From a virus: a stretch of 64,000 nt of DNA. Shown piece by piece: positions 11,381 to 63,634 of the stretch; the first letter of the stretch is position 1, and each line of letters starts with the position of its first letter. The position numbers and the translations under genes are program-made. The stretch is from IMG/VR virus record IMGVR_UViG_3300009702_000017, positions 57,051-121,050 of that record. The stretch is one strand, 5' to 3'. Below the pieces are notes generated by a model, which saw only the letters and a list, made by a program, of their open reading frames with translations, did no database searches and was not told the DNA's origin.

Positions 11381-11391
11381 GTTACAGCGAG
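11381..11391 (-). promoter_or_regulatory. CTCGCTGTA phage promoter-like motif (minus)
   Basis: CTCGCTGTAAC followed by TAGAGAG and the ATG at 11363. Shares CTCGCTGTA and a following TAGAG with sites at 11612 and 35523. Confidence 0.45.
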
Positions 11392-11611
11392 TTTAGCGTT
11401 ATGTTTAGCTTACTGTCACCGAATTTTTCTGGACATGATCTTATTGGTATACAACTTAGTATATTTATTAATATATAGTATTCTAATGATATAGAAATAC
11501 CTGAGGCTCTTCGCAGGGTCCCTAGACCTCCAGAAAACATCAAAACACGAAAACACCACAGGTGACTTCACTGGTCTTACGCAAAACTTCGCTAATGTTC
11601 GCCCCTCTATT

Positions 11612-11620
11612 CTCGCTGTA
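11612..11620 (+). promoter_or_regulatory. CTCGCTGTA phage promoter-like motif (plus)
   Basis: TCTCGCTGTAGTTAGAGTAG lies just upstream of the ATG at 11633. No clear Shine-Dalgarno separates them beyond the weak AGAG, suggesting a very short leader if transcription begins just after the motif. Confidence 0.45.
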
Positions 11621-11632
11621 GTTAGAGTAGAT

Positions 11633-12256
11633 ATGGGAAACCCGAGATCGAAAGGCGGCAGACCGCCAGGAGCAGCCAGGGAAGGGGCTTACGAGCTACT
11701 AGAACTGCTGCTGCACAACAGCGACGACCAAGGCGCTTGCACCCTTACCTTGGAGCAGCTTTCGCACAAGCTCAATAGGTGTAAGCGCACACTCATCCGC
11801 TACATGCACATCCTCAAGGACGAGGGGCATGTTACCGTAAAGCGCTGGAATTACATGGTAGATGGCAAGTTCATAGGCAGATGGAAGGTGTTTCCAAGAG
11901 GTGCCAAGGCGATGTACGACTGGGCTCACTGGGCCGAGGTCCATAAGCAACCCATTGTGCCAAAGAAGACGTTCTCGGCACCCAAGGACAAGCTTCCTCC
12001 CGGCAGACCAAAGGGAGGGTTCAAGCAGAAGAAACTGGAACTCATGCTAATTCTGAAGATGGAATGCGGCCGAAAGGGATACACGAAAATCAGTTCGAAT
12101 GAGTTGACGCAACGAATGAAGCGATCGAAGTCAAGTGTGAGCAAGTATCTTCAGTGCCTACGCAATGAGGGGGTTGTCTCAGCAGTGTACAACCGATACA
12201 ACAATCGAGACTGGAGCGGTGTGTACACGGAACGAATCATCTATTGGCATAGGTAA
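11633..12256 (+). CDS. DNA-binding regulator with two AT-hook/winged-helix repeats
   Basis: A 207-residue protein built of two similar halves. Each begins with an AT-hook-like basic motif (GGRPPG near residue 9; PPGRPKGG near 121) followed by a winged-helix HTH: TLTLEQLSHKLNRCKRTL with an LKDEGHVTV wing in the first, and KISSNELTQRMKRSKSSV with LRNEGVVSAV in the second. The double layout suggests binding to two half-sites or bridging. It is the first gene of the plus operon, opposite the sigma-operon, and is a good candidate for controlling the early/middle switch. Role inferred. Confidence 0.75.
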   Translation: MGNPRSKGGRPPGAAREGAYELLELLLHNSDDQGACTLTLEQLSHKLNRCKRTLIRYMHILKDEGHVTVKRWNYMVDGKFIGRWKVFPRGAKAMYDWAHWAEVHKQPIVPKKTFSAPKDKLPPGRPKGGFKQKKLELMLILKMECGRKGYTKISSNELTQRMKRSKSSVSKYLQCLRNEGVVSAVYNRYNNRDWSGVYTERIIYWHR

Positions 12257-12259
12257 GAT

Positions 12260-14104
12260 ATGGCAGAATCATACGGCAAGGTGAAGTCAGTAGCTAAGAA
12301 CGTAACCGTCAAGGGACCCGACCTTGACTCGAAGGTACTTTCGACGATGAAGCGAACCGCTGACATCGTGGGTGCTACCTTGGGACCGGGTGGTAATCCT
12401 GTGCTCGTTGAGCGTCAGGAATACGGCCTTCCGTCCTACGTGACGAAGGACGGGGTGACTGTATTCCAGTCGCTTGGTTTCCTGGACCCTACGGAACACG
12501 CCATCATGGAGACGGCAAGGGACGCTAGCGTGCGTACCAACTCGGAGGCAGGTGACGGGACTACAACCGCTACTGTGTTGTCTGAGGCGATTGTTCGTCT
12601 CATGAACGAGTATACCAAGAAGCACCCTCGCGTCAGTCCACAGTTTGTCGTGCGGGAGCTAGAGCGGTGTTTTCGTGAGGACATTGATCCGACCATCAAG
12701 AGCCTGAGCTGTACTGCTTCTCGCGATAACGAAGAAGGTATCGGTTTCTTGCGTTCCGTTGCTCGAATCAGCACAAACGGAGACTCCCCTCTAGCGGATG
12801 CGGTGATCGATTGCTTCGAGATTTCTGGCGATCAAGGGAATGTGACCATTACCGAGACAAGCGGTCCATCGAGCTACGAAGTAGAGCATGTTGACGGCTA
12901 TAGTATCGGAACAGGATACGAGGAATCTTGCGGAAAGTGGTATGGAAAGTTCATTAACGATCCTGCAACACAGAGGTGCGTACTGGAGAAGCCGGTTGTG
13001 GTGCTCTATCACGGGCAGATCAACGATATTGGTACTGTCAGGCTGCTCATGGAAGCAGTTGGTGATGCGTGGCAGACTAGTCGTGGAGGCGAGGAAGGCG
13101 AGTTCAATGGTAACGTAATCCTGATGGCTACCGGATTTTCTGATGTGGTCTTGGGTATTTTTGCTACAAATTTCAACATCCCAAGCATGTTGAGTGTCTT
13201 TCCGTTGGTTGTTCCAAAGAGCCCAATGCTAGGCGGTCAATATGAGCTTCTTGCTGACATTTCCGCGCTTACTGGCGCGAGGATCTTCGATCCCATCAAT
13301 GACCACCCCGATAGCTTGCCTTACTTAGAGGCACAACGTCAAGGGCAACTGAAGGATCTGTTGCATGAATACCTTGGGCCTGGAATCGATAGGTTTGAGG
13401 CAGGTAGGTATCGTTCCAACGTACTTGGGATGGCTAATGAGGATGACGTTCTTGTCCGCATTGACGAGCTACAGGCTCAGATCGAGAACGCTGCGTCACG
13501 CCTTGACAAGATGCTGCTAGAAGAGCGTATGGCAAAGCTGTCGGGTGGAATCGCAAAGCTAGTAGTACGTGGTCCTAGCAACGGCGAACTCAAGGAAAAG
13601 CGCGATCGTGCAGAGGATGCTGTGTGCGCTGTTCGTGGAGCCATCTCTGATGGATTCCTACCGGGTGGTGGATGGACTCTTCTCTATCTGGCAGAGATGT
13701 TGGACAAGCGCGGTAGCGACATCCTCTCGGAAGTGCTCGTTCCGGCTCTCCGTTCCCCTGTAGAGCGATTGTACTCCAACGCCGGTCTCATTACCGAGGA
13801 AGATCGCGAAGAGGTGCTGAAGCCCATCCTGACGGCCATCAGGAACAACGCCAAGAAGCACAAGTATCTTGTGTACGACGTACTTGAGGGAAAGCACGTA
13901 GACGCTTACGAAAGTGGTCTGCTGGATAGTACCCCCGCTGTACTGGAGGCAATCCGTAACAGTCTATCGATTGCCTCTCTTCTCGGATGTCTGGGTGGTA
14001 CGATTGTGTACGCTCGCGATCTTGAGCTTGAAAGGCAAGAAGCCCTGGATAACAGCGAATGGCTTCGCAATGCTGGCGTAAATCCCGCAAACGAAAGACC
14101 CTAA
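12260..14104 (+). CDS. GroEL-like (group I) chaperonin
   Basis: A 614-residue phage chaperonin, longer than the usual 545 or so. Nucleotide-site motifs are present: TLGPGG, TKDGVTV, GDGTTTATVL, and the hydrolytic aspartate in the EDAVCAVRGAI segment, followed by FLPGGGWTLLY (cf. VVAGGG in GroEL). The Gly-Gly-Met C-terminal tail is absent; the end is a charged ...NAGVNPANERP. It starts three bases after the upstream stop. By analogy with Pseudomonas phage EL and related phage chaperonins it should fold virion or replication proteins; no co-chaperonin gene is visible here. Confidence 0.93.
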   Translation: MAESYGKVKSVAKNVTVKGPDLDSKVLSTMKRTADIVGATLGPGGNPVLVERQEYGLPSYVTKDGVTVFQSLGFLDPTEHAIMETARDASVRTNSEAGDGTTTATVLSEAIVRLMNEYTKKHPRVSPQFVVRELERCFREDIDPTIKSLSCTASRDNEEGIGFLRSVARISTNGDSPLADAVIDCFEISGDQGNVTITETSGPSSYEVEHVDGYSIGTGYEESCGKWYGKFINDPATQRCVLEKPVVVLYHGQINDIGTVRLLMEAVGDAWQTSRGGEEGEFNGNVILMATGFSDVVLGIFATNFNIPSMLSVFPLVVPKSPMLGGQYELLADISALTGARIFDPINDHPDSLPYLEAQRQGQLKDLLHEYLGPGIDRFEAGRYRSNVLGMANEDDVLVRIDELQAQIENAASRLDKMLLEERMAKLSGGIAKLVVRGPSNGELKEKRDRAEDAVCAVRGAISDGFLPGGGWTLLYLAEMLDKRGSDILSEVLVPALRSPVERLYSNAGLITEEDREEVLKPILTAIRNNAKKHKYLVYDVLEGKHVDAYESGLLDSTPAVLEAIRNSLSIASLLGCLGGTIVYARDLELERQEALDNSEWLRNAGVNPANERP

Positions 14105-14355
14105 TGCCTCTATACAAGTACAAGTGCCCAACGTGTGGCCTTCAGGCTCGCAGAATCCTGCTTGCTAGGCAGAAGGACGAACCGCAGACTTGCGTGTGTG
14201 GAGAACGACTTGAACGTGATCCTTCTCCACCGTCTAGTCATGTAAGAGAAGTAGTCGATAACGGCATGATGCCAAGGGCAGTTGATCGGTTCTCAAAGGC
14301 AGAGGAACTATACAAGAACCGAGCAAAGGAACTCGAGCAGAAGATGAAGGAGTAG
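14104..14355 (+). CDS. Small zinc-ribbon protein (FmdB-like)
   Basis: An 83-residue protein starting at the ATG that overlaps the chaperonin stop (TAATG). MPLYKYKCPTCG with CVCGE about 20 residues later gives a CxxC...CxC zinc ribbon as in the FmdB regulator family. The rest is charged and helical, ending AKELEQKMKE. A possible protein or nucleic-acid adaptor; function unknown. Confidence 0.65.
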   Translation: MPLYKYKCPTCGLQARRILLARQKDEPQTCVCGERLERDPSPPSSHVREVVDNGMMPRAVDRFSKAEELYKNRAKELEQKMKE

Positions 14356-14357
14356 AC

Positions 14358-14994
14358 ATGAAAGAAGCAAAGAGTATTGTATACGATTTAGCCAAGGAGC
14401 TTAATAGGCTAATGGGGATCAGGCTCCGTATTCAAATCTGCTAAAACTACTCGAAGAGCTAGAGGGGCCCAGCAAGACATTTGAATATGATCCGTCAAAG
14501 GATCCATTTCGTGGTGGATTGTTCTTGGTTGACAATGACTTCTCAACTGCGACCAAGAGCATTAATCACCTCATTGATAGAGCGAGACTGCTCGAACTAT
14601 CTGTGCCCTACGATACAAACACTTACCGCAGTCCCTTGTTTCGTGTAGGCGATGTCTTGAAGCCGATGGGTTATTGTATGCCGGGCTTCTTGATGTTGAC
14701 TTCACAATTCTTAGCTCTCCGTATAGCGGCATCCTGAAGGACAAGATGGTTTGGGTCTACGAAGTTGTGCTTCGGGTATGCAAATGTGGTGTCAGGGGAG
14801 AAGAAAAAGAGGGTATGGCAAAGGAAGAGTACGCGAGGCTATACCTTCCTAACCTTCATGAGTATTGTGAACTGAAGTGCAGGCCAAGGCCGATCCGTTT
14901 TGTACGGAAGGGAAAGACGATGAGTGACGTAGAGGATAGAATCAAAGATCCGTTTGAGGGCGCAACCTTGCAGGTGAGAAAGATCGAACGGTAA
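14358..14994 (+). pseudogene. Hypothetical gene split by two frame changes
   Basis: The ATG at 14358 opens a 28-codon frame, but coherent protein continues in other frames. At GGGG 14414-14417 a missing G would join LNRLMG to DQAPYSNLLKLLEELEG. At GGG 14668-14670 another missing G would join FRVGDVLKPMG to LLYAGLLDVDFTILS and then run to the stop at 14994. The restored protein is about 212 residues, mixed alpha/beta, with a CKCG motif near two thirds. Both breaks are at homopolymers, so sequencing error or real decay are both possible. Family not recognised. Confidence 0.5.
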
Positions 14995-14997
14995 GCG

Positions 14998-15346
14998 ATG
15001 GGGCGTACTTCCGTTAGTAAATCCAGAAGCGATCCGTGGACTTAAGGATGCCCACTGGGATTATACCAAGGATCCATATGGTCCAGGCACGGTGGCTTAT
15101 GCTAATGGGTGGAACGCTGATGAGATCCGAGAGCACAAGCACCCCTTCGTGATGTACGATGAAGACCAGATGAATGCGAATGCATTGAGCGGCAATTGGG
15201 GTGAAGGGGTAGATAGTATCTACGTACTTCGCAACAGTGCATATCGCAACAGGCATTGTCCAGAGGGGATTGTTCCCAATGAGGAAGACATTCCTCATAG
15301 TGATCGTAACCTTTGGGCTACTCTCATGGTGTCGTTCAATTTCTAA
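14998..15346 (+). pseudogene. Hypothetical gene, probably frameshifted near its start
   Basis: ATG at 14998 runs only 15 codons, but deleting one G from GGGG 15000-15003 gives MGVLPLVNPEAIRGLKDAHWDY... open to the stop at 15346, about 115 residues. The protein is hydrophilic with YTKDPYGPG and HKHPFVMYDED segments; no known domain. Without the correction the frame could start only at internal codons such as 15092. Confidence 0.45.
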
Positions 15347-15352
15347 CCTTTT

Positions 15353-15363
15353 CTCGCTGTATA
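15353..15363 (+). promoter_or_regulatory. CTCGCTGTATA phage promoter-like motif
   Basis: TTCTCGCTGTATACTTGG ends only a few bases before the ATG of the SbcC-like gene (15370), with no Shine-Dalgarno between, so the message may be nearly leaderless. Confidence 0.5.
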
Positions 15364-15369
15364 CTTGGT

Positions 15370-17508: not shown

Positions 17509-17758
17509 GCTTACCATTCAGGAAGTGAATGAGATTAAGGGAATGGCAAGGACCAACCTCATTGACTGGAACTATCTGGACCACCGTCTTCCAGATATGA
17601 AGCGCGAGCTACAGTACGAGGAGGCGTTCACGCTTGCTTACGTCGAGGCTGTATTGAATATCCTCAACAAGAAGGGGGCTATCAAGGACGGCTGGCTTGA
17701 TGCTCATAAGATGGTCATGCGACCACCGCATGACTACGAAAGTATGTACAGTGAGTAA
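17501..17758 (+). CDS. Hypothetical protein
   Basis: An 85-residue, mostly helical protein whose ATG overlaps the SbcC-like stop by 8 bases, so it is coupled to it. Contains an EEAFTLAYVEAVLNILNKKG helix. No domain recognised. A small partner of the nuclease complex is conceivable from position only. Confidence 0.6.
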   Translation: MIELTIQEVNEIKGMARTNLIDWNYLDHRLPDMKRELQYEEAFTLAYVEAVLNILNKKGAIKDGWLDAHKMVMRPPHDYESMYSE

Positions 17759-17759
17759 T

Positions 17760-17770
17760 CTCGCTGTATA
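17760..17770 (+). promoter_or_regulatory. CTCGCTGTATA phage promoter-like motif
   Basis: CTCGCTGTATACCTAG begins just after the stop of the preceding gene, 28 bases before the ATG at 17798, which has its own CTGGAGATAA ribosome site. Shares the extended CTCGCTGTATACCTAG with the site at 35523. Confidence 0.5.
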
Positions 17771-17797
17771 CCTAGTGAACCCAAACTGGAGATAAAC

Positions 17798-18076
17798 ATG
17801 GCAGGAAGACCCAAGAAGGACCCATTCGCGGATTTGGATGATGCTTTCAAGGCAGCTGTACAAGAGAGCGATGACGCCACCATTCGGACGAAGATTACTG
17901 ACGCCGCACTCTTTCGAGTGCAGGTCGAAGAGGCTCGAAAGGCAGACGTAGACCTTCAGATGAAGAAGGATGTCTTCCATGAAGCGGATGCCCCGTACAA
18001 GGATGATGTCAAGGCCGCTAACATGAAGATTCAGTATTGCCGAGAGGTGCTGAAGAGTCGCGGCAAGAATGTCTAG
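17798..18076 (+). CDS. Hypothetical basic/helical protein
   Basis: A 92-residue charged helical protein beginning MAGRPKKDPF, an AT-hook-like sequence. The rest is likely a coiled coil (RVQVEEARKADVDLQMKK). It sits alone between a promoter-like motif and a strong terminator, so it may be an independently expressed, abundant small protein. Function unknown. Confidence 0.65.
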   Translation: MAGRPKKDPFADLDDAFKAAVQESDDATIRTKITDAALFRVQVEEARKADVDLQMKKDVFHEADAPYKDDVKAANMKIQYCREVLKSRGKNV

Positions 18077-18089
18077 TCGTAGCAGCAAC

Positions 18090-18140
18090 ACCACCACAAG
18101 ACTGCGTAGGATCTACCGGTCTTGTGGTGGTATCTTTTTT
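18090..18140 (+). terminator. Intrinsic terminator
   Basis: ACCACCACAAGAC pairs perfectly with GTCTTGTGGTGGT (13 bp), the loop holds a small GTAG/CTAC hairpin, and the downstream arm runs into ATCTTTTTT. It lies just after the 17798-18076 gene. Confidence 0.9.
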
Positions 18141-18149
18141 GGAGACATC

Positions 18150-18764: not shown

Positions 18765-18767
18765 CGT

Positions 18768-20738: not shown

Positions 20739-20754
20739 TGTTTGGTCATTGTTT

Positions 20755-20765
20755 CTCGCTGTATC
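20755..20765 (+). promoter_or_regulatory. CTCGCTGTATC phage promoter-like motif
   Basis: TTTCTCGCTGTATCAAGAGTAGGAG precedes the TTG start at 20783; ten of eleven bases match the consensus. Confidence 0.45.
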
Positions 20766-20782
20766 AAGAGTAGGAGAACATT

Positions 20783-21670
20783 TTGACATTCAGTTTTGAC
20801 CCAGACGAATTCGCTCCTCTAGAAGATGATTCGAGCTACGAGAAAATCTACGATGAGCCGGACACTCAACCAATGGGTGTAGCAGATGTAGCGCAGTCAG
20901 TGTTGGAGGAACTTGACAACGTTCCAGACGAGGATGACTTTGGGATCGAAGACCTGACTGAAGTTACCAAACGGTTGGATGTGGCGTCGTACTACCGAAC
21001 CCTTTTGGATAGTCGCATCTTCAACGACCCATCCCAAGCCGCACTCATTGTAGAGAGTCGTATTCGGAAGTTTGTTCGTTCTGAACTAGATATCCTACTT
21101 GGGATCAAGCCTCAGCAAGTCGCGGCCCCGCCTCAGAGTACATTTTCCTCAGAAGAGGTAGAGGCATTGAAGGCCATCGCAAGCAGGTTGCTGGGTGGAG
21201 GTAGAGGCAATCTTGGGCCTCCACAACAGCCTCGCGGCCCTGTAGTGAACCGTGTTGATCCCCCAAAATCTCGGAGAACACCTACCCTTGCTGGACCTTC
21301 AAGTCAGCCTAAGGCCAATCTCCCAAGGCGTAAGGAGAAGGCGACTCCGAAGAAGAAGCCGCAACCAAAGAAGCCACAACAGCCCAACCCCGCTCGGGAT
21401 CCCAACAAGGCATACAGAACCAACGAAACGAATAATAAGGGGGAGCAGATCATTCGCAAGGGACACAAGAAGTATGTGGAGCGAGTCGCTGATAATGGGA
21501 AGAAGTATCTAGCTGATATTACTCCGCAGCTAACAAGCCCCGCTCGAATTCCAATGCCCTCTAAGGCAGCTTTCGAATCGGCCATGCAGGCAGAGGCACA
21601 AAACCAGATTGCCTTCCTATCAAAGCAACCAATTCAAACACAGCTAGCGGTACAGCTAGTACAACAATAA
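20783..21670 (+). CDS. Hypothetical Pro/Lys-rich protein
   Basis: A 295-residue protein starting with TTG after TAGGAGAACAT. The N-terminal 120 residues are acidic and helical, ending IRKFVRSELDILLGIK. The middle is Gly/Pro-rich, then strongly basic and disordered (RRKEKATPKKKPQPKK), followed by a small basic domain (KGHKKYVERVADNGKKYLAD). This resembles a DNA- or virion-associated scaffold with a flexible tail, but no family is recognised. Confidence 0.65.
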   Translation: MTFSFDPDEFAPLEDDSSYEKIYDEPDTQPMGVADVAQSVLEELDNVPDEDDFGIEDLTEVTKRLDVASYYRTLLDSRIFNDPSQAALIVESRIRKFVRSELDILLGIKPQQVAAPPQSTFSSEEVEALKAIASRLLGGGRGNLGPPQQPRGPVVNRVDPPKSRRTPTLAGPSSQPKANLPRRKEKATPKKKPQPKKPQQPNPARDPNKAYRTNETNNKGEQIIRKGHKKYVERVADNGKKYLADITPQLTSPARIPMPSKAAFESAMQAEAQNQIAFLSKQPIQTQLAVQLVQQ

Positions 21671-21690
21671 CCATAACCAGGAGAACGCAA

Positions 21691-22302: not shown

Positions 22303-22307
22303 TAACA

Positions 22308-22361
22308 AGATACCCCTGGGATCGTACTCCATTCGGTGAGATCCCAGGGGTATCTATTATT
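22308..22361 (+). terminator. Hairpin terminator
   Basis: AGATACCCCTGGGATC pairs perfectly with GATCCCAGGGGTATCT (16 bp, 16-base loop), followed by ATTATTT. The weak T-run leaves open a processing or attenuating role. Confidence 0.75.
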
Positions 22362-23811: not shown

Positions 23812-23815
23812 CGGT

Positions 23816-24196: not shown

Positions 24197-24414
24197 CAGA
24201 CGACGAAGCAAAGCAGCAGATACTCACTGACCCCGATTTCGTTTATTCAAAGAGGTTCAACTTCTCTCTTGAGAAGCTGATGGATCGGTACGTTGATGGG
24301 CCACCTAAGCGCATTCAGGCACAAGTTCTAATGATCACGGAAAATGAACTAGAGGAAATCTACGAGCAAGCCATTCAGAAGCTCCGAAAGTTCATGAATG
24401 TAAACGCGCTGTAA
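24193..24414 (+). CDS. Hypothetical protein
   Basis: A 73-residue helical protein, ATG overlapping the previous stop (ATGA), ending eight bases before the polymerase start. Contains TENELEEIYEQAIQKLRKFM. No known domain; a small polymerase accessory is possible by position only. Confidence 0.6.
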   Translation: MTDDEAKQQILTDPDFVYSKRFNFSLEKLMDRYVDGPPKRIQAQVLMITENELEEIYEQAIQKLRKFMNVNAL

Positions 24415-24415
24415 C
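24405..24415 (+). promoter_or_regulatory. Weak variant of the CTCGCTGTA motif
   Basis: CGCGCTGTAAC differs at one base from the minus-strand motif at 11391 and lies just upstream of the polymerase ATG (24422). It overlaps the end of a coding sequence, so chance is possible. Confidence 0.25.
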
Positions 24416-30704: not shown

Positions 30705-31853
30705 ATGGCAAAATCAGATGCACAGAAGATGATGGCAAAGCTCATGAAGTTGGATGGTGCGGTACAGCGAGACTACGACCCGTACATGAATGTACTACGT
30801 TGCCCAAGTCCGAGCTTCAACTTCACCTTTGGGAACTCATGGGGGCTTCCCCTTGGCTATACATTGGCTATCTGGGGACCACCCAAGGGTGGCAAGAGCG
30901 TCGTCATCAACTCCATGATTGGGCAGATGCATCGTGACTATCCAGATGCTTATGCCATCAAATTCAACACCGAGATGCGCGAACTCGTACAGCTTACTGA
31001 CCGGCAAATGGATGTTTGGGGGATCGATAGAGATCGGTACATTGCCTATGAGACCAACAGGGCCTCTGGCGTATTCGATGTCATTGAAAAGAACATCGCT
31101 GAGGCCGTAGAAGGCGGAATGAACGTCAAAATGGTTGCCATCGACTCCTTGAATAGTATCATGGGTCGCCGGACCGAGAACGCCAACACGGTTGACCAGC
31201 AACAGATTGGCGACAAGGCCCAGACCTACGGGGACGGCCTTGCTCGCATCCTCCCTACGCTACGCAAGTATCGTATTGGTCTGGTACTATCTCTACAGCA
31301 ACGACAGGAGATGGACCAGCACGAGATCAAGCGTGGACATATCCACAAGATGGCTGGTGCGAATGCAGTCCAGCATTTTGCTGAGTATTTCATGTATATC
31401 GCACCGGACAAGACTAAGAAGGGCCGCCAAGATCTCCTAGAGAATGATCTTGTCAACAAGCAGGTGAGTGACCTAAAGGATAAGGCGGAACAGACTGCCC
31501 ACCGCATCTATGTCAACATGCGCGACTCCTCTGTTGGGCCCAAGGGCCGTTGGGGTGGGTTCATTTTCAGTGACAAGGAAGGCATCGTCAACACCCACGA
31601 AGAAGTATTTCTTCTTGGTACAAATCGGGGTGTGATCGAGAGACCAAATCAGCTGACGTATTCCTTCAACGGAAACAACTGGGCTGGTAAGAAGAACATG
31701 ATCGAAGAACTTAGAAAGAACCCGGACCTTTGCAGTGCAATTCTGACCAAACTGCGTGAGATGGATATTGGAGGCGGTGCAGACGACATCGGAGGCGAAG
31801 ACGTTCCACAGGGAATCGTGAATCCTGGAGCGGAAGGCGAAGGGGAAGTGTAA
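30705..31853 (+). CDS. RecA/UvsX-like recombinase
   Basis: A 382-residue strand-exchange ATPase. Walker A is GPPKGGKS (about 59-66) and Walker B is VKMVAIDSLNS. A Gln-rich SLQQRQEM segment follows near the DNA-binding loops, and the C-terminus is Gly/Glu-rich and acidic. It follows the SSB and mediator-like genes by 8 bases with AGGAGAACAT upstream. It should drive recombination-dependent replication with the gp46/47-like nuclease and UvsW-like helicase. Confidence 0.88.
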   Translation: MAKSDAQKMMAKLMKLDGAVQRDYDPYMNVLRCPSPSFNFTFGNSWGLPLGYTLAIWGPPKGGKSVVINSMIGQMHRDYPDAYAIKFNTEMRELVQLTDRQMDVWGIDRDRYIAYETNRASGVFDVIEKNIAEAVEGGMNVKMVAIDSLNSIMGRRTENANTVDQQQIGDKAQTYGDGLARILPTLRKYRIGLVLSLQQRQEMDQHEIKRGHIHKMAGANAVQHFAEYFMYIAPDKTKKGRQDLLENDLVNKQVSDLKDKAEQTAHRIYVNMRDSSVGPKGRWGGFIFSDKEGIVNTHEEVFLLGTNRGVIERPNQLTYSFNGNNWAGKKNMIEELRKNPDLCSAILTKLREMDIGGGADDIGGEDVPQGIVNPGAEGEGEV

Positions 31854-35522: not shown

Positions 35523-35533
35523 CTCGCTGTATA
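35523..35533 (+). promoter_or_regulatory. CTCGCTGTATA phage promoter-like motif
   Basis: CTCGCTGTATACCTAGAGAG starts directly after the helicase stop and ends at the GGAG ribosome site of the protease gene (ATG 35551). It shares CTCGCTGTATACCTAG with the 17760 site. Confidence 0.5.
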
Positions 35534-35550: not shown

Positions 35551-36219
35551 ATGGACACACAAGAAGAAGTCGAGGAGCTAACCCTTATGGAGCAAATGGC
35601 ACCATTGGCCCAGCGAGCAGCAGGCACACTTGGCACTGGTTACGATTTCGACAACCGGATCTTATACGTTGTAGGAGACGTTGACGAAGCCATGTTCATG
35701 CGTGTGCTGGTTGGTCTGAATGCCCTTGAGGAAGAGGAGGGGCCAATTACGGTGATGCTTCATAGTGGAGGGGGAGAAGAACTTCCAGGGTATGGTATCT
35801 ACGATGCGTTTCGGATGTTTCCATACCCTGTCGTCATTCAAGGTTTTGGCATTGTTGGATCGATGGCATCCATTATCTTGCAGGCTGCTGACTATCGTGT
35901 GCTGACCAAGGAGTGTCAATTCCTGGTCCACAATGGAAGCATGACCTTTGGGGGGGTCACTGATGGGATGTTTGTGTTGCCTTCCGAAAAGGCCATTTCA
36001 GTGGGTGCGGATGTAAAGAGGTCGGTAAATCGATACACCACAATCCTAGCTCGTCATACTCACCTTACTTTGAGTGAGGTACAAGAGATTTGTGGAAAGG
36101 ACGAGTTCTTGTCTGCCCGCCAAGCCCTTAAGCTAGGGTTCATTGACAAGATCGCACCGACACGCAAGAAGTTCGAGATCGCTAAGAAGCGCAAGAAGAC
36201 CAAGAAGAAGGAGAAGTAA
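35551..36219 (+). CDS. ClpP-like serine protease (peptidase S14)
   Basis: A 222-residue protease. MLHSGGGEELPGY matches the ClpP substrate-loop start, GIVGSMASII carries the nucleophilic Ser, FLVHNGS the His, and GKDEFLSARQALKLGFID the Asp-containing segment (cf. RDRFLSAPEAVEYGLVD in ClpP). The C-terminus is a lysine-rich tail (KKRKKTKKKEK) absent from normal ClpP, suggesting nucleic-acid or partner binding. No ClpX-like ATPase is in the window. It may process virion proteins or hijack host proteolysis; which is unknown. Confidence 0.85.
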   Translation: MDTQEEVEELTLMEQMAPLAQRAAGTLGTGYDFDNRILYVVGDVDEAMFMRVLVGLNALEEEEGPITVMLHSGGGEELPGYGIYDAFRMFPYPVVIQGFGIVGSMASIILQAADYRVLTKECQFLVHNGSMTFGGVTDGMFVLPSEKAISVGADVKRSVNRYTTILARHTHLTLSEVQEICGKDEFLSARQALKLGFIDKIAPTRKKFEIAKKRKKTKKKEK

Positions 36220-43468: not shown

Positions 43469-43913
43469 TGACCAAAACCTTCTACCATACAGCAGCGCTT
43501 TTCTCATACCTTACGCTGGCCCATTTTGTAGCTGACTGGACCTACCAGTCGCACGTTACCACAATGGCCAAGTTGCATGCGCTTTCGTGCTCTTCAAGCA
43601 TTGTGTGATCTACGCAACCGTGATGACTGTCTCATGGCTTTTTGTAGCTGGAGATACGGCGATGCCAATTCAGACGTATGTGTTCTTCTTGATCCTACTT
43701 GGAAGCTACATGATCGAAGACATGTACCTACCAGTCTACTGGTGGATGAGGTACGTAAGGAAGGTCTCGGTGGTACGAGAGCGGGGCATCGAAGACTTTA
43801 AGGAGTACGTCAAGACGCCTCTCGGTGCTATTCTGATGATTACCGTAGACCAGATTGTCCACCTTCAGTTTGTTTGGTTGGTGGCTTGGTACGCTATATA
43901 CACTAGTAGATAG
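43468..43913 (+). pseudogene. Membrane protein (DUF3307-like), one-base frame change
   Basis: ATG 43468 encodes ALFSYLTLAHFVADWTYQS..., then shifts. Adding one T to the TTT near 43586 joins it to FVLFKHCVIYATVMTVSWLF... and runs to 43913. The joined protein has three or four membrane segments, an HFVADW motif at its start and a QIVH motif near its end, a pattern of DUF3307 membrane proteins. Either a sequencing error or recent mutation. Confidence 0.5.
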
Positions 43914-46453: not shown

Positions 46454-47071
46454 CTAGGCGCTATACGGTGTGAACTGAAGGTCTCCTGTGGCGCCAGCAG
46501 AGCGGCCAGCTACAGAGGTCGAGGCAGCCACGTGAATGTACTTTGTCTGACCAAGAGCAATGCGCATCCCACCGGTAGCAACGGTGGTAGCAAAGTCAAA
46601 ATAGACATCCTCGTTGAAGCAAGCCACCTCGTAGTCACCAGCGGGAAGAGTAGTAGTCGTAGAACCATTGGCAGCGCAGCTTGAAAGCGTGACAACGCTG
46701 CCAGGAACATAGACGAGTCCAGTAGGTGAGGTAGTCGTAGACATGCTTCCTGCGCCCGTAGCAGCAGCAGCATTTGATTCGGGCTGTCGGTTGATTACCT
46801 GGGCTGGCTGAGTAATCATCGCCCCGTCTGCGACTAGGTAAGCGCTCATGTCGCTGTTGCCAGTTCCAGGACTGGAAGCTAGTCGAAGACCAAGCTTGCC
46901 ACCAGTTGTACTGGTAATGACTACAGCAGCGCTACCCGCAGCTGAACTGTAGATGTTAGCGGTAGCCCCAACAAAGAAGTCGTTGGTGTTTGCTAGTCCG
47001 ACGAGGCCGGTAGCAGTACCATCAACGGTGAGTGGGGCGGACTTCTTGGCAATCGAAAGGGATGCTGACAT
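46454..47071 (-). CDS. Hypothetical virion protein
   Basis: A 205-residue Ala/Thr/Ser/Gly-rich protein, beta-predicted, with no membrane segment. Starts after ACAGGAGTCACT, below an AATCTAT motif. Contains TTTTLPAGDYEVACFNEDVY and ends ATGDLQFTPYSA. Probably a fibre or decoration component. Confidence 0.5.
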   Translation of the reverse strand: MSASLSIAKKSAPLTVDGTATGLVGLANTNDFFVGATANIYSSAAGSAAVVITSTTGGKLGLRLASSPGTGNSDMSAYLVADGAMITQPAQVINRQPESNAAAATGAGSMSTTTSPTGLVYVPGSVVTLSSCAANGSTTTTLPAGDYEVACFNEDVYFDFATTVATGGMRIALGQTKYIHVAASTSVAGRSAGATGDLQFTPYSA

Positions 47072-47087: not shown

Positions 47088-47094
47088 ATAGATT
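47088..47094 (-). promoter_or_regulatory. AATCTAT motif upstream of a virion gene
   Basis: Minus strand reads TAATAATCTATAGAGACAGGAG directly after the lipoprotein gene stop and before the start at 47071. Confidence 0.35.
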
Positions 47095-47095
47095 A

Positions 47096-47569
47096 TTACT
47101 TGGGTTCACTACACCTTTCAGGGAAGCCATCTCCCACATTCCAATACTTCAACTCCGAGTGGGTTGGGTCTGAGTCCCCCTTATACAAAGCCAACATGTA
47201 ATGGGTAAGCTCGTGCAAGTACGCTGTCGCATACGTGCAACCACCGAAATCATAGAGCTTCAGAACCGACCATTCTTCGAGGCCAGCACAGCCGTTCTTG
47301 CTAGCCCATGGACAAGCAAGCAAATGGTCGTAGATAACCAAATGGCTTGAGCGCATGGCCTTGAGCACCTGCGCCCGAGTGAAGTAGCCGCGCTCAGTCA
47401 TCTGGAGGATGTACCAGCTTTCCATGGTGTCGGCTTGAGCACCATCAAAGCTGGCGTTACCATTGAGCTCAACAGACGCACCGTGGTCAGTTATGAGACT
47501 TGCGGTTGGCCAAATACCACCGCAAGCAGTGAGCCCAAGGAGGCATACTAAAGCCAGCCACTTCACCAC
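47096..47569 (-). CDS. Lipoprotein with a zinc-metalloprotease HExxH motif
   Basis: A 157-residue protein starting with GTG. The N-terminus is a lipoprotein signal, WLALVCLLGLTAC, with lipobox Cys at residue 16. YLHELTHYML gives HExxH at residues 119-123, and THSE (H137) 14 residues on could supply a third ligand. Four other cysteines (about 86, 94, 111, 153) may form disulfides. It sits in the lysis group directly after a tiny membrane protein, so it may act on the envelope like an outer spanin or protease. Catalysis unproven. Confidence 0.6.
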   Translation of the reverse strand: MVKWLALVCLLGLTACGGIWPTASLITDHGASVELNGNASFDGAQADTMESWYILQMTERGYFTRAQVLKAMRSSHLVIYDHLLACPWASKNGCAGLEEWSVLKLYDFGGCTYATAYLHELTHYMLALYKGDSDPTHSELKYWNVGDGFPERCSEPK

Positions 47570-47937: not shown

Positions 47938-47948
47938 TATACAGCGAG
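47938..47948 (-). promoter_or_regulatory. CTCGCTGTATA phage promoter-like motif (minus)
   Basis: CTCGCTGTATATAGGCC then ATG 47931. A site inside the lysis/virion operon, giving the small lysis-group genes a possible separate promoter. Confidence 0.45.
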
Positions 47949-49026: not shown

Positions 49027-51273
49027 TTATGTATTAGGCCTGATTGTATCGAGCGTATATGTCACCGTCATGTAGAACAATGAAAATGTACCACTCGAAG
49101 GAATGGGTAGTGTGAATTCAAACACGATCGCGTCTGTTACTAGCCAGCTTACTCCAGTCACCAGATTTACAACTTGACGAGTAGTGGCGTTTCCTGCAAA
49201 TGTAGCAGTAGCGGACCCGCTGATGTTAAGAAGCGTTGCCGTCCACGTAGTACCAGCCAAGGTGTCCTTGTAGATTGAGATACTAGAGATACTGTGGGAT
49301 ACGGTATCCGTATTCCTGGCGGTGAAGGAAATGGACGTAATGGTCGCCCCAATCGGAATACGCACACGGCCACCGATCAGTGGTGTACCGGTTGTGCTTG
49401 GTGAAGTTGAGATAGAAGGAATAATTCCAAAAGCAGAACCTCGAAGAACTCCTGTTGTGCCTGTATCATACAAATACATCTCAGCTGCACTTACGTGTAC
49501 AGAGAAGGTCTGTGGGGTTTTGAAATTGTGAGCATCTGTAGCGACACCGGTATTAAAGGTTGCAAGACCGGTAACTGTGATAGGAGGTGTGTGGGTTGAG
49601 TTGCCAATTTCAATTGTCTTGGCAAAAGATCCAATGACCAGATCGTTTACACCCCCACCACCATCAGGCTCATAGGAAGTGGCTGAAATTACGCCAGCCG
49701 AAAGCGTGTCCACGAACCGTGCTGGACCATATACGGTCACTTGCTTTGTGCTTCTGCCAATCGCAATCCCAGTTGCAGTCGTAGTACCGATATTGATGGC
49801 GCCTATAGCGTCAATCGTCACATTGCCAGCTGTACCATTGATGAAGACAGCGGCACCGTTGAGGGTGAGGTTCGATGGGCCAGCATTGATGTCGGCTGCG
49901 GCAAGAATGCCTGCTACAACCGATGTCACACCGACTCTACCAATTGTTACACCAGTTGTATTGGTATCAGTACCAAGCTTCATCGTACCTGTGGTAGGAC
50001 GTGAAATCCCATCTGCCAACACGCTGCCACCCGCATCGATCGTAGGTACGATAGGATTGGTAGCGCTCAATGGAGTTGTGTTTAGGGTAACTGTGCCATT
50101 GAACGCGGTTGTAGCTGGATTGACGATTAGGTTGCCAACTGCAAGAGGGAAGTCACGGGTATAGACTACGCCGTTGTGCCGCCACGCAATGACAAAACGG
50201 CTGCCCGGGATAGCGCCAGTTCCGAGACTAGTTAGCTTCGTCTTCTTCGGCACCAACGCGCTAGCACCAGTGAGATTCTGAGTCCTGTCTACGTCTACGT
50301 AGATGCAGTAGTCATCGGCAAGGTCAGTCAGCCCAGGGCTGTCAGTAGTCTGGTCTGCGATGTCGTTGTAAATACCAGTCGAGTTGTCGAAGAGAAGGGT
50401 CAGGCCCTTCCAGTGCAGGTTGCTAGCAACCACTTCGAAGTAGTCCCCACTCGCAAAAGCGGCCCCACTACGAATCATGCGAACATTGCGGTCGGCTGCG
50501 GCACTGTACCAATACTCACCACCACCAAGCTCCCAGAGCCTAGTCATAATGGCGTCGCGCCAATCCTTGTCGCTCAAGATGGCCTTGTCCCCGCCGCTGA
50601 AGATGTCCCCAGATGTATTTTCATAGCGGGTTCCAGGCCAAGAATAAAATGAACCGGTGTTCGGGGTAGAGCCACCTGAACCAAGCCGGAAATAGAGCTT
50701 ACGTGCATCCTCAAGTGATGTGACATTGTTTGAGGCGTCTGTCGTTACCTTCGCGATTGGAAGCACTGTCGTAGTGCTATCAAAAGGTAGCGTGCTGATG
50801 ATGATGCGATAGTCAAGTACGCGAGCTAGAGGTACGACAGAATTGGTCTTCCCAAGTGTATTGGCGTCGAGGAAGAACACGGTATCGGCTGTCGTGGGAT
50901 CGGCTGTACGAGTGAGGTTGAGCCCTACATAGTTGACGGTGTTGGCAATGAAGCCTCCAGTCAACTTGGCGTTTGAGGTATCTAGTGTCTCTGGCGATGC
51001 ATTGTCATCTGTCTCGAATACAGAACCAGATTCACTGGCTCCATAGTGGATGATGGCGCTGTTGGCCACCGCAAGCTGAAGGGATGTAGCCGGGCTTCCA
51101 ACGGCATTTGTGGTGACCAGCTTGAACCCACGCACCACCAAGGGCTTCCTACCAGCAAAGACGCTTCCGATTACCGAATCGAAGTCTGCAGACACAGCTG
51201 ACTCAAGGCTACGGAGATGGGGGACATCGATACGTTGCTGGCCAAGCCAGTTCTGTCTACGCTTGATAGCCAT
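49027..51273 (-). CDS. Long tail-fibre/baseplate-associated protein
   Basis: A 748-residue, mainly beta protein. The N-terminus (GQQRIDVPHLRSLESAVSAD) resembles the virion-attachment part of large phage fibres. The middle has fibre-type repeats: MKLGTDTNTTGVTIGR, then INIGTTTATGIAIGR, each followed by strands, and the end is a beta domain with ISSISIYKD. It starts below an AATCTAT motif. Probably a tail fibre; no receptor-binding domain named. Confidence 0.65.
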   Translation of the reverse strand: MAIKRRQNWLGQQRIDVPHLRSLESAVSADFDSVIGSVFAGRKPLVVRGFKLVTTNAVGSPATSLQLAVANSAIIHYGASESGSVFETDDNASPETLDTSNAKLTGGFIANTVNYVGLNLTRTADPTTADTVFFLDANTLGKTNSVVPLARVLDYRIIISTLPFDSTTTVLPIAKVTTDASNNVTSLEDARKLYFRLGSGGSTPNTGSFYSWPGTRYENTSGDIFSGGDKAILSDKDWRDAIMTRLWELGGGEYWYSAAADRNVRMIRSGAAFASGDYFEVVASNLHWKGLTLLFDNSTGIYNDIADQTTDSPGLTDLADDYCIYVDVDRTQNLTGASALVPKKTKLTSLGTGAIPGSRFVIAWRHNGVVYTRDFPLAVGNLIVNPATTAFNGTVTLNTTPLSATNPIVPTIDAGGSVLADGISRPTTGTMKLGTDTNTTGVTIGRVGVTSVVAGILAAADINAGPSNLTLNGAAVFINGTAGNVTIDAIGAINIGTTTATGIAIGRSTKQVTVYGPARFVDTLSAGVISATSYEPDGGGGVNDLVIGSFAKTIEIGNSTHTPPITVTGLATFNTGVATDAHNFKTPQTFSVHVSAAEMYLYDTGTTGVLRGSAFGIIPSISTSPSTTGTPLIGGRVRIPIGATITSISFTARNTDTVSHSISSISIYKDTLAGTTWTATLLNISGSATATFAGNATTRQVVNLVTGVSWLVTDAIVFEFTLPIPSSGTFSLFYMTVTYTLDTIRPNT

Positions 51274-51288: not shown

Positions 51289-51295
51289 ATAGATT
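51289..51295 (-). promoter_or_regulatory. AATCTAT motif upstream of a virion gene
   Basis: Minus strand reads TAGCCACAATCTATTATCG then AGGAGCACT. The 14-mer TAGCCACAATCTAT is identical to the site at 63600 before the baseplate gene. Confidence 0.4.
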
Positions 51296-51299
51296 GTGG

Positions 51300-55899: not shown

Positions 55900-55906
55900 C
55901 GTATGC

Positions 55907-56944: not shown

Positions 56945-56946
56945 AA

Positions 56947-59900: not shown

Positions 59901-62900
59901 GGTTCTGTACCGCTGCGTCAGAACTGAAATTGTAGACAGACACACCAGCAGAGTTCACTCCCAATACGTTATTGAAGAAAAAATGTGGGGTTCTGGTATC
60001 GTCTCCACGCACGTAAGCGTATGTACCATTGTCAGATACCTGTGCTGTAGCTGGCGAGAGTGCGATTGGTGTGGTGTCAGTGGCAGCGACCAAAGCCACG
60101 TCTCCATGGCTTCCAAATGTGTTGGTGCGAACCCTCAACGAAGCAGTGTTGTGCACATAAGCAAACGCGCCGTTTATGCTTCTGTTGATGTACTCCGCAA
60201 TGGTAGGAGCGAGGTAGCCGAGCCCTCCACCAAGTGTAGTCATTTGAAGCGCCTTGTCGGTACGTGCGAACGCAATGCCTCCATTGATAAACGCACCCAC
60301 CATTCTTCCGATGTCGTGTTGGAACTGGTTTTGGCTGGTATCCAGAATTTCTGATGTAGCTACCCCAAGAGTCTGATTGGCGAAGTCTGCGCGTCCACCT
60401 ACCATCATCAATAGCGCGGTATCAATGTAGGCAGAACGAGCACCGATAATATAGTTAGGCGTGAGGTTGTTGGCGTAGCTGCCCACTGCCCATGGGCCAG
60501 TCCCACTCCCATCTGTCTGGATCTCTACGAGAGCAGTAGACGCTCCACCGCCCATGGCGTAGAGTGAACTGGTAGTGGCATCTACAAGCAAATCGAAATC
60601 ATAGCGTGAGTGATTGAGGCTGTTCGCAGAGGTTGTCCATGTTCCTCCAGTTATACTGTATGTTTCTACGCTCGTAAGGGTTGTGATAGTACCAATCCAT
60701 CCGATTCCGCCAGCTGCTACCACATCTCCAGATGCCAGGACTGCCATACCAAACAGACTGCGAGGGGTATTGAGTGCGCCCGTGCTTGAAAAGGTACCTG
60801 CGGTGTGAGAGTAGATTTCACATGTCGAGATAGGGTCAGAAGGGCTGATCTCTCCACCTGCAATGAGTGCGTCTCCATTGGGCAAAAGCACCTGACTGTG
60901 ATTGGCTCGTGCATTTACCATTGGGATGGCTGCGCTCCATGTATTTGTAGTAGGATCGTATACGTAACCGACAGAAGAATAGTTGTTGGCAGTCGTAGCA
61001 GTATCGTTTGCCACACCACCGGTCACGAGTACGGTCCCGTCTCCCAGGAGCGTGGCCCTGTGTTGTGCCAATGCGATTGGTAAAGGGGCGGCAAGGCTCC
61101 ATGTTTTTGTAGTAGGGTCATATAGTTCACAGGTGTCTGTAGCTTGAACTGCACCTGAGTCCGCATTGGTAAAGCCACCGGTCACGAGTACCTTGCCAGT
61201 ATTTAGCAGTGTGGCTGTATGGTCGTAGCGTGCATTAGCAAGCGAACCCACCGCAGTCCAGGTGAGTGTGGTATGGTCATACTCTTCTGTGATTGTGGTA
61301 CCTGTGATGCCACCAACAGCGAGACCTTTGTCAGTTGCGATCTTGGTGAAAGTATGCCCGGCCCGTAACGCATTTAGACCACGGATTTCGATGTCAATAT
61401 AGGTTCCAAGCGCATCTACATATGCCACCCGATGGCTACCACGAAGTACGTCTGGAGCGGTGAAGTCCCATACGATCATCCAATCACCAGCTCGTACATT
61501 CAGAAATGGTGCGCCGCTGGAAGCAGTGAGACGATAACGATAACCCCATCTCTCGTAGCTATGGACACCACCCGTGAATGATGTAGACGCTGTGATGCCC
61601 GTGTTCACTACTGCGCCGCCGCCATCTACCACAAACCACATGCTCAAGTCAGATGTCAGAGGCGCACCAGTTATAGTACCGGATTCAATGAACTGTCTGA
61701 TGTTTGCTGTGCCTACAGATAGACTGTCCCCTGCATTGAGAGGTGTCTTCAGCTTGATGTCGCCACTGAAGCGATCCAACGTGTAATCTGAATTTTTGCC
61801 AATGGACACAGCCACATTGAATACGCCGTTGTTGATGAGCGTACCACCTGAAACAATTAGCTTTGACCTAAAAGAGTTAGCTAGGTTGCTTTTCATCAAT
61901 AAAGTGTTACCGTTGACAGTGACCGTCACGCCAGGAATGACATAGTTCAAAACAGATGCCCATGCATCGAGTGAGTTTGGACCAACAGACGTGAACTTGG
62001 TGCCTGCATCAACGAAGTCTTGGTCGGTAATGGTATAGGTGGTACTTGCAGTACCATCTACTGATAGCGTAAGTGTCTGGTTGCCTATAAGCGCCTTCCA
62101 CTCACTGAAGCTGTTTCCCATTAGGGTTGCGGTCTTCCCGTCCCTGGACAAAAGTACGTCATTGCGATAGAGCCACAGAGTATCTGTCAGTGTGGTGGTG
62201 AACCCAAGAGCATCGTTGGCGTCTGTATAGGCTGTCTCCGCTGTCGTCACCTTTAGATACTCATTGGTATGTGCCTTGGAAAATAAAGCTACCTGCGTGC
62301 CACTGTTGACAGTCCTGGCGCCAAAAGCGAGGGTGTTGTCGCGGTTGATTGAGGCAGCTATCTCATAGGCAGTCGCAGCGCCAATGTCTCGGAAGTCGGC
62401 TGCCTCAAAGTAATGGACCGCAATGGCGTCTCCCACTATCACACGGAGTTGTGCGCCTGCGGTCAGGGTAAATGGTGCGCTTGATATAGATTGTACAAAC
62501 GCCTTGGCTACTGGCACATTGGAGAGCTTGAAATATTGCTCACCACCTACCGCTGCCTCCACAAGAGGCTCACTGGGAATGGCATCGTAAGAGGGTTCGT
62601 ATCCATTTCCATCATCAATGTACAGAACAGTCGGCTCACCCACACGCTTCACTAACTTTGATGATGTGATGCGCTTGTTGTCTGTACTAGAGGTAAGCCC
62701 CAGTACACCATACTCAATAGCCGAGTCTACACCACCAATGACTCTGGAGGCTTCGATTGTGCGCAAACGATCGCGGTACTCTTCTATTGTCTCCGCGTCT
62801 CTACCATTGCTGAACCTCAATGGATTGGTTACGATAGCGCCTGTAAATGGATCTGCTACAAAACTGTTGATTGCACCAGGAGGAACGTTACCATTAGATC

Positions 62901-63594
62901 CCTTTGTTTTTGCTACAACCAATACATTTGATACAGTCATCTCACCATCAGGAATGATTGCATCATACTTGGTCTCGTAGATGATTGCGTTAGCTGCATT
63001 GCCATTGGCTGTTTGAGCCTGTGTACCAGCTGCTATCAATCTGTCTCCACCCTGTCCAACGACCACCGTCTCATCTGCGTTGTGAGCACGGGCAGTGGCA
63101 GTCGAAAGAGTGATAATCCAATAATCGCCAGAGTTGGTCACGGATGTATAAGCAAGCGGGCCCTCATAGTTCTCTGTACCAAAGCCAATGTATACGGTTC
63201 CAGTGGCGGGAAAGGTCGAGGCGTCCTTGACGTAGATATCCGTTGTCCCTACGACTGGAAGAGGCTGGCCCGCGTACACAGTCGAGTAGAGCTTGGTGTA
63301 GGTGCTATCGGTGATAGTGACATACCCATATGCCGCAGTCTGCTTCGTTGGAGGGTAAGCCTGAGCGATGTCCCTATTGTACAAGGCGGTGCCAGTAGCA
63401 CGGTCAAGAGACTGGGCATTGAGTAGCTGGAAGATGTCCTGGGTGTCGTGTGTGTCCGACTGCGCCGCCGCCTCGATGAGAGCCAGGATAGGGCTGCCCA
63501 CCTGGAGGCTGGGAATCCCATACCTCGACAGGAAAGAATCAATCATGTCCTGACGGATCTGTGCGTAGGAGCGTGGCGTGGGGTAGTCTGCCAT
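56947..63594 (-). CDS. Giant baseplate J-like protein with an inserted Kelch propeller
   Basis: A 2215-residue protein. The N-terminus (PTPRSYAQIRQDMIDSFLSR) and SNGRDAETIEEYRDRLR with RVIGGVDSAIEY near residues 270-300 match Baseplate_J/gp6 proteins. A domain near residues 400-470 is shared with the 1170-residue protein. Residues about 755-1030 hold kelch units, e.g. ATLLNTGKVLVTGGFTN, ATLLGDGTVLVTGGVAN and LLPNGDALIAGGE. The last 110 residues (IHNIKISLLVRTW..., ITISDLVAAATTV, GVESVVVLSP) are the usual J C-terminus. It should form the baseplate wedge, with extra surface domains for host contact. Confidence 0.85.
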   Translation of the reverse strand: MADYPTPRSYAQIRQDMIDSFLSRYGIPSLQVGSPILALIEAAAQSDTHDTQDIFQLLNAQSLDRATGTALYNRDIAQAYPPTKQTAAYGYVTITDSTYTKLYSTVYAGQPLPVVGTTDIYVKDASTFPATGTVYIGFGTENYEGPLAYTSVTNSGDYWIITLSTATARAHNADETVVVGQGGDRLIAAGTQAQTANGNAANAIIYETKYDAIIPDGEMTVSNVLVVAKTKGSNGNVPPGAINSFVADPFTGAIVTNPLRFSNGRDAETIEEYRDRLRTIEASRVIGGVDSAIEYGVLGLTSSTDNKRITSSKLVKRVGEPTVLYIDDGNGYEPSYDAIPSEPLVEAAVGGEQYFKLSNVPVAKAFVQSISSAPFTLTAGAQLRVIVGDAIAVHYFEAADFRDIGAATAYEIAASINRDNTLAFGARTVNSGTQVALFSKAHTNEYLKVTTAETAYTDANDALGFTTTLTDTLWLYRNDVLLSRDGKTATLMGNSFSEWKALIGNQTLTLSVDGTASTTYTITDQDFVDAGTKFTSVGPNSLDAWASVLNYVIPGVTVTVNGNTLLMKSNLANSFRSKLIVSGGTLINNGVFNVAVSIGKNSDYTLDRFSGDIKLKTPLNAGDSLSVGTANIRQFIESGTITGAPLTSDLSMWFVVDGGGAVVNTGITASTSFTGGVHSYERWGYRYRLTASSGAPFLNVRAGDWMIVWDFTAPDVLRGSHRVAYVDALGTYIDIEIRGLNALRAGHTFTKIATDKGLAVGGITGTTITEEYDHTTLTWTAVGSLANARYDHTATLLNTGKVLVTGGFTNADSGAVQATDTCELYDPTTKTWSLAAPLPIALAQHRATLLGDGTVLVTGGVANDTATTANNYSSVGYVYDPTTNTWSAAIPMVNARANHSQVLLPNGDALIAGGEISPSDPISTCEIYSHTAGTFSSTGALNTPRSLFGMAVLASGDVVAAGGIGWIGTITTLTSVETYSITGGTWTTSANSLNHSRYDFDLLVDATTSSLYAMGGGASTALVEIQTDGSGTGPWAVGSYANNLTPNYIIGARSAYIDTALLMMVGGRADFANQTLGVATSEILDTSQNQFQHDIGRMVGAFINGGIAFARTDKALQMTTLGGGLGYLAPTIAEYINRSINGAFAYVHNTASLRVRTNTFGSHGDVALVAATDTTPIALSPATAQVSDNGTYAYVRGDDTRTPHFFFNNVLGVNSAGVSVYNFSSDAAVQNLYAIREDMVLKGLKNTPYYPTQTGDIERYGSLVGYESAIASITPEAVNYGCSFLTLRTPFGTTLPHDRIELVHPYAISPDDTLNLMVDGSHSFSVPMGVKVSPTSATYGNTNSYVDAATGLTLANTFGDSFDFNDWAVFMHSRTVSHSTDPTLATLWRYSRLGADGDTARMYFDYPTAPNKALTISIDGTSATAAEHTDIAVILPSGAEKTSATINATTKFGLSFHGTSADYTKLTLVSGFSAASASRTGSTVTLTLTLPSTAFATVTDAGLGTGVAFYLNSSDANFPSGLYTTQAGTTGATVVYNDGGTATTTGTAIGTITPGYSETLLPTLAANDLVYFDDNSHVDVNVRGTVVQLVNVGSQYAQGYTRTQVTGNGVVTWGNDGVGGGSTSPLLTFFPLDTAGCGISTIISSVAAISYAPMTGTFVGTTPTGSVLHSTNDAFTAYRSYYSFADGINWVQTTTAPGTNYSLSFKRSVDASLAGSSVDWFNENIYLVPILPASIVAYMGLPSVSGLPSVGEVSYANGSVQLSSLTLGSEGSIQTDGGTANIAVANLYGTPTFGYSNGDLGYASILIPNEQALPFHAGDMVEVANNTAAQKATFTTATTLSRITPDGKVTLTNAFRTTTASMISTRIRVEKHGKYMAYFIYDAAGTTVGSEGDYVTISTPTSGTALSSSNQGTFPVVRSVSKIPGMHGFWIENPNGVEEDEVYVNATFYNQASLMPGDQIHIEDDFWGSGNKGTWTVLSIDSTYNFSVDVSNRPMASVSGSPGALGTHVDSIYVTEGTPNKLVKHIHSIFPSTDGLHTFLKFDTDNGLTRISENNDATVTSLDKLSFNTSLHLGTDGYKAGTGLLEEATKTIYGDLDNPAYPGLLASGADVLIDGPLIHNIKISLLVRTWTSVDRTNIENSVRGAVASEINRSGVGKSITISDLVAAATTVNGVESVVVLSPSYNSGNDLISVQAYEKPVTLNPTTDITIKFVGD

Positions 63595-63599
63595 GCCTC

Positions 63600-63606
63600 A
63601 TAGATT
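63600..63606 (-). promoter_or_regulatory. AATCTAT motif upstream of the baseplate gene
   Basis: Minus strand reads TAGCCACAATCTATGAGGC, ending just before the ATG at 63594; TAGCCACAATCTAT is identical to the 51289 site. Confidence 0.4.
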
Positions 63607-63623
63607 GTGGCTATGAAATTTTT

Positions 63624-63634
63624 CTCGCTGTATA
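63624..63634 (+). promoter_or_regulatory. CTCGCTGTATA phage promoter-like motif
   Basis: TTTCTCGCTGTATATAATG; the ATG of the 37-codon ORF (63637) is two bases after the motif. It points away from the divergent baseplate gene. Confidence 0.5.

Follow-up and report, generated by a model that had tools for sequence, protein, structure and literature searches.

Two candidate -35-less promoter classes and a truncated sigma factor in phages related to Myxococcus phage Mx1

Based on sequence comparison, we propose with a probability of roughly two in three that a phage distantly related to Myxococcus phage Mx1 (169,621 bp) carries two classes of -35-less promoter, and that a phage sigma factor without region 4.2 would read one of them within a transcription cascade. 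The first, class A, is an 11-mer (CTCGCTGTATA) that would span positions -17 to -7 of an extended-(-10)-like promoter and drive mostly non-structural genes, including the operon encoding the phage sigma, whereas the second, class B (CAATCTAT, -13 to -6), would be the family-wide late promoter of structural genes.

The window analysed is a stretch of 64,000 bases (57051-121050) of a 121,050-base IMG/VR phage record. This phage, here called G, shares about 41-51% identity with Mx1 in its DNA polymerase, GroEL, sigma, portal and terminase (DnaE 49.7%, sigma 42%, GroEL 49%), and both belong to the same phage family. Scans with conserved proteins showed this family to be large, with about 100 loci recovered from phages that are mostly ~165-180 kb in size, and 13 of these phages were compared (G, Mx1, V1, V2, V3, P4, P5, P7, P12, P14, P15, P16 and P17), with G, V1, P4, P5 and P15 being fragments. 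Genes were called by a simple codon-usage script, and all start codons are predictions. No account of such a motif in these phages came up in a literature search, and the Mx1 genome announcement does not discuss promoters (PMC10720576). Genome contigs matched in a sigma search were MAGs of four unlike lineages, which offered no usable host. The two ends of the G record (bases 1-1025 and the last ~300 bases, window about 63700-64000) are inverted partial copies of each other containing ~30-base tandem repeats. They represent either a genuine inverted repeat or an assembly end that folded back.

Occurrence and geometry of the class A motif

All copies of the 11-mer listed in the earlier note are present in the window (Table 1). 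The weak copy at 24405 falls under our weight-matrix threshold, has the ATG of its gene at base 18 (counting the C of the motif as base 1), and is matched by GTTTCGCTACTAG at the same place in the V1 orthologue. Within the window, matching the 11-mer with up to two mismatches gave 25 matches against 13.6 expected; such loose matches are therefore mostly noise and were dropped, and the exact 9-mer CTCGCTGTA is the informative core. The earlier note had held that a promoter motif should not be equally common inside genes, and this is what the whole record shows: CTCGCTGTA occurs exactly 13 times against 0.84 expected (order-1 Markov model, Poisson p 8e-12), and 12 of the 13 copies are intergenic in a record with only 11.6% noncoding DNA (binomial p 7e-11), the single coding copy within the window lying at 30771 (-). 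A weight matrix with its threshold set at 0.5 chance hits found 17 class A sites in the record, 16 of them intergenic; its profile was refined on intergenic sites and is biased towards them, a bias from which the exact 9-mer count is free.

The consensus in G is TTTTCTCGCTGTATAnnnnGT-R. Alignment of the 17 sites agrees with the earlier observation that no -35 is conserved, the sole upstream bias being a short T run directly before the motif, whereas GT-R at bases 16-18 describes the continuation better than the CTAGAG reported for several copies. The placement of copies before gene starts also stood for most sites, but those at 47948 (-) and 63624 (+) precede very short ORFs of 24 and 54 codons that are not obvious genes.

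Table 1 Promoter sites and the sigma gene (window coordinates unless stated).
Feature	Sequence	Position	Strand	Match to the 11-mer	Remarks
Sigma70-family protein, 351 aa		8245..9300	-		ends after region 4.1, without region 4.2
Class A promoter	CTCGCTGTAAC	11381..11391	-	two mismatches, first nine bases exact	before TMK-like/helicase/sigma operon; ATG at base 29
Class A promoter, divergent partner	CTCGCTGTAGT	11612..11622	+	two mismatches, first nine bases exact	before gene 11633-12256, GroEL; ATG at base 22
Class A promoter	CTCGCTGTATA	15353..15363	+	exact	SbcC-like gene (ATG 15370, 712 aa), predicted leaderless, base 18
Class A promoter	CTCGCTGTATA	17760..17770	+	exact	before gene 17798-18076
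Class A promoter	CTCGCTGTATC	20755..20765	+	one mismatch	before gene 20783-21670
Weak class A site	CGCGCTGTAAC	24405..24415	+		DnaE-like polymerase, ATG (24422) at base 18
Class A promoter	CTCGCTGTATA	35523..35533	+	exact	before ClpP-like protease gene 35551-36219
Class A promoter	CTCGCTGTATA	47938..47948	-	exact	24-codon ORF, ATG at base 18
Class A promoter	CTCGCTGTATA	63624..63634	+	exact	54-codon ORF, ATG at base 18
Class A sites outside the window		603, 12629, 13887, 16772, 42163, 43528 (record coordinates)	-		
Class A sites outside the window		26576, 29472 (record coordinates)	+		
Class B promoter	GTAATCTAT	4072..4080	-		before gene 3069-4052 and portal; kept in nearly all relatives
Class B promoter	ATAATCTAT	47088..47096	-		before gene 46454-47071 (tailspike-like N-terminus)
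Class B promoter	ACAATCTAT	51289..51297	-		before gene 49027-51273 (structural cluster)
Class B promoter	ACAATCTAT	63600..63608	-		2215-aa baseplate gene, ATG at base 15 (predicted leaderless)

The spacing between motif and gene is informative. An ATG or GTG starts exactly at base 18 in 6/16 G sites (background 3.2% per position, p 6e-6), and all 16 have a purine at base 18 and 13 of them a T at base 17. The simplest reading is therefore that base 18 is +1, that the motif occupies -17 to -7, and that many of the mRNAs are leaderless. The promoter would thus consist of C at -17, T, C, G, C, T at -12, G at -11, T, A, T and A at -7, six further bases and a purine at +1, with about a third of the copies giving mRNAs that begin at the start codon. 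The same geometry recurs in relatives: measured from the start-codon peak, G, V1, P14 and P17 all have a TCGCT block at -16 to -12, and start codons fall at the class A distance in 19/37 sites of P14 (p 2e-18), 19/46 of P17 (p 4e-16) and 4/15 of V1 (p 1.5e-3). In V2, it is the -35 element TTGACA that has its peak 36 bases before start codons, which is independent evidence that leaderless starts are common in these phages and that the distance argument works. Placing the -10 at TATACT in G was ruled out, since +1 would then fall within the start codon at the leaderless sites.

The earlier proposal that the motif is a promoter is upheld by its intergenic enrichment, single orientation, fixed distance to start codons, purine at the inferred +1 and identical geometry in independent relatives, as well as by ordinary -35/-10 promoters that replace it at orthologous genes. 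Very probably, then, the 11-mer is a promoter without a -35, with a predicted start 17 letters downstream that often coincides with the first codon. Its nearness to start codons, and the two winged-helix domains encoded by the first gene behind one copy, could instead suggest that it serves a phage regulator as operator or acts in mRNA leaders as an RNA-level signal, but orientation, spacing, the +1 purine and the direct replacement by -35/-10 promoters make this very unlikely, and at leaderless sites the motif would lie outside the mRNA.

The winged-helix gene (11633-12256, DnaD-like domains) stands behind the divergent class A copy, and its product is probably a replication initiator and conceivably a regulator. 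At record base 43528 (-), a class A promoter directly follows the T run of a terminator hairpin 3' of the major capsid gene, with a similar arrangement in V1 at 43656.

Class A in relatives and host-type promoters

Matches to the same 11-mer in Mx1, V2 and V3 are not upstream of genes, and de novo motif searches were therefore used. Upstream of genes these recovered the class A forms TTTCGCTAC in V1, TTCGCTATAAG in P4, ATTCGCTAT in P14 (37 intergenic sites) and TTCGCTATAGG in P17 (46 sites). At the two genes behind the 17760 (+) and 20755 (+) copies, G and V1 both have class A (TTTCGCTACTAG at the first of these genes in V1), and V2 and V3 have TTGAC plus a TAGAAT-type element at the same place. 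The start of the sigma operon forms a series across the family, running from TGTGTTATAATG through CCGTGGTAAGATT, TTCGCTATAGG and CGTTATAC to CTCGCTGTAACTAG. Class A at this position appears to be a drifted extended -10, and ordinary host polymerase could use the forms of several relatives.

These observations raise the possibility that class A is simply a normal host promoter type read by the unmodified host sigma, and that it has drifted between phages because their hosts differ. Relatives indeed show a gradation of the element into a textbook extended -10 (TGnTATAAT), represented for example by TGTGTTATAATG and CGTGGTATACT, with genes and distance unchanged. In P14 and P17, both near-complete, class A accounts for almost all non-structural promoters and must therefore include early ones. 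However, class A in G has C at -15 and G at -14 at nearly all sites rather than TG, G at -11 in 16/16, where the housekeeping sigma prefers A, and mostly A rather than T at -7; such strict conservation over 9-11 bases, with no -35, would be unusual among the diverse promoters of a host. G also has separate host-type promoters (TTGAC-N16-19-TAnnnT) in five upstream regions, before small ORFs, against 0.3 expected. The invariant G at -11 together with these coexisting host-type promoters suggests that some change of specificity is needed, which for this phage supports the earlier description of class A as the phage's own promoter and makes reading by an unmodified host sigma doubtful in G.

Mx1 shares class B and the truncated sigma with G but, unlike G, is without CTCGCTGTATA promoters and has many host-type promoters plus a AGATCAACgcnGTA element; its divergent GroEL/sigma region carries CTCGCTATTAG. 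Sites resembling class A are at 169287 (-) of Mx1 and ahead of its base 1. In Mx1 (L014-L017) and P16, AGATCAACgcnGTA stands at a fixed 23-24 bases before start codons and is perhaps the counterpart of class A. At about 82-121 kb of Mx1 (L015, L016), the space from -35 to -10 of host-type TTGAC..TAGTATG promoters contains GGATCTGC or AGATCCGC, apparently an operator common to them.

Class B and the truncated sigma factor

A second motif, absent from the earlier note, has the core word CAATCT and takes the form GCAATCTAT at 14 sites in G, all of them intergenic. Most relatives have [CT]AATCTT, and P17 has AATCAT. Start codons begin at base 15 in 6/14 G sites (p 3e-6), and the motif is a single element at -13 to -6 with no upstream conservation in the -35 region. 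It recurs at orthologous places across the family, before sheath, tail, protease, baseplate and portal-cluster genes, and among about 48 distinct phages nearly all have it upstream of the gene directly after terminase, only L107 and L108 lacking a clear copy at this gene. The two classes divide the genes between them: class A mostly precedes replication and takeover genes (GroEL, SbcC, RuvC/RNR, helicase-sigma, DnaB-like, ClpP-like, dUTPase and others), and class B precedes structural genes. Judged by the identity of these genes, class B appears confined to late ones. At 63600-63634 of the window, one promoter of each class is found in back-to-back arrangement at a distance of 16 bases, the class B copy lying before the 2215-aa baseplate gene.

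The phage sigma has weak profile matches (phrog_351, E 2e-5; Sigma70_r2, E 0.0015, below cut-off), and its assignment to the sigma70 family is also backed by alignment. Its AlphaFold model has a pLDDT of 87.5, and RNA polymerase sigma chains make up all of the 50 best PDB matches. The protein and its 61 recovered homologues end within about 20 residues of region 4.1, two of them being cut by contig ends, and none of the 61 extends into region 4.2, the -35-reading helix-turn-helix. A sigma without this region suits -35-less promoters of either class. Searches with the PF04542, PF08281 and phrog_351 profiles for a second sigma-like gene found one convincing sigma per genome only.

Two relatives carry an in-frame insert in the sigma gene, about 1.2 kb near the boundary of regions 2.4 and 3 in IMGVR_UViG_3300029985_000693 (L086:3416-5677, -) and another such insert in IMGVR_UViG_3300037424_001778. 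The insert matches Pfam Intein_splicing at E 1e-6 (below the curated cut-off), and these phage sigma genes therefore probably contain an intein.

Readers of the two classes and the proposed cascade

The earlier note suggested that the phage sigma-like protein reads the 11-mer, which would leave class B to another factor. A sigma without region 4.2 and a class A without a -35 form a compatible pair, and profile searches offer no other convincing sigma in these genomes. The sigma phiEco32 gp36, which also lacks region 4, reads -35-less middle/late promoters (tAATGTAtA) whose TGTATA lies 6-8 bp before +1 (PMC8948821); class A in G has TGTATA at -12 to -7, six bases from +1, and this shared register argues for the sigma reading class A. 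Class A differs from those promoters in having CTCGC rather than tAA upstream and in standing mostly at non-structural genes, with structural genes using class B instead. Several lines of evidence turn us away from the suggestion. The sigma operon itself sits behind a class A copy, which implies that class A works before or without the sigma unless the protein is packaged. The region 2.4 segment is nearly constant among phages with very different class A, V2 and V3 keep the sigma yet use host-type promoters in class A slots, and class B, whose conservation is as wide as that of the sigma, would have no reader. We therefore regard the sigma as an unlikely reader of class A with another factor for class B, and since class B and the sigma are both family-wide, it is on the same grounds probable that the sigma reads class B alone. 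A covariation of an SET/SKT residue in the sigma with AATCTT/AATCTA is suggestive but involves two phages with too few sites, and was set aside as evidence. That one sigma reads both classes, perhaps with different phage co-factors, is improbable; if true, a single truncated sigma would run the middle and late programme of a large, widely sampled family.

For class A, the most likely reader seems to be host RNA polymerase or host sigma with a specificity changed by a phage factor, followed by the phage sigma. The search for a factor reading class A found none: when phages with CGC-type class A were compared with those of the sigma70 type, the genes confined to the former were a RuvC-like gene and some small, fast-evolving ones, of which none was convincing. 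G, P14 and P17 have no conserved column near -30 of the kind expected for a T4 MotA/AsiA-like activator box. Phage-encoded beta/beta-prime RNA polymerase had no match in 10 family records, in a search that did detect its positive controls, and neither did single-subunit RNA polymerase, though with an uninformative control.

The assignment of class B to the phage sigma has a parallel in T4, whose late promoters are read by gp55 (about 185 aa) with gp33 and gp45. Both systems have a short single element without a -35 before late genes and a sigma lacking the -35-reading domain, but they differ in sequence (CAATCTAT or [CT]AATCTT versus TATAAATA) and in the size of the sigma (351 versus about 185 aa). 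The position of the T4 late promoter TATAAATA relative to +1 matches the -13 to -6 of class B (PMC1524935). Class A has no counterpart in the T4 late class. In the cascade that we propose, a few host-type TTGAC/TAnnnT promoters would act early, class A promoters would follow in the early to middle phase and supply the sigma lacking region 4.2, and the sigma, much like T4 gp55, would then direct late transcription from class B.

Together these results would provide a base-resolution promoter map, which predicts +1 positions, distinguishes two -35-less classes and pairs one of them with a truncated sigma, for an uncharacterised family of mostly ~165-180 kb phages that includes the first isolated Myxococcus phage. 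Orthologous genes in this family show a graded series from a textbook extended -10 to a non-sigma70 sequence, which may be useful for studying how promoter recognition changes.
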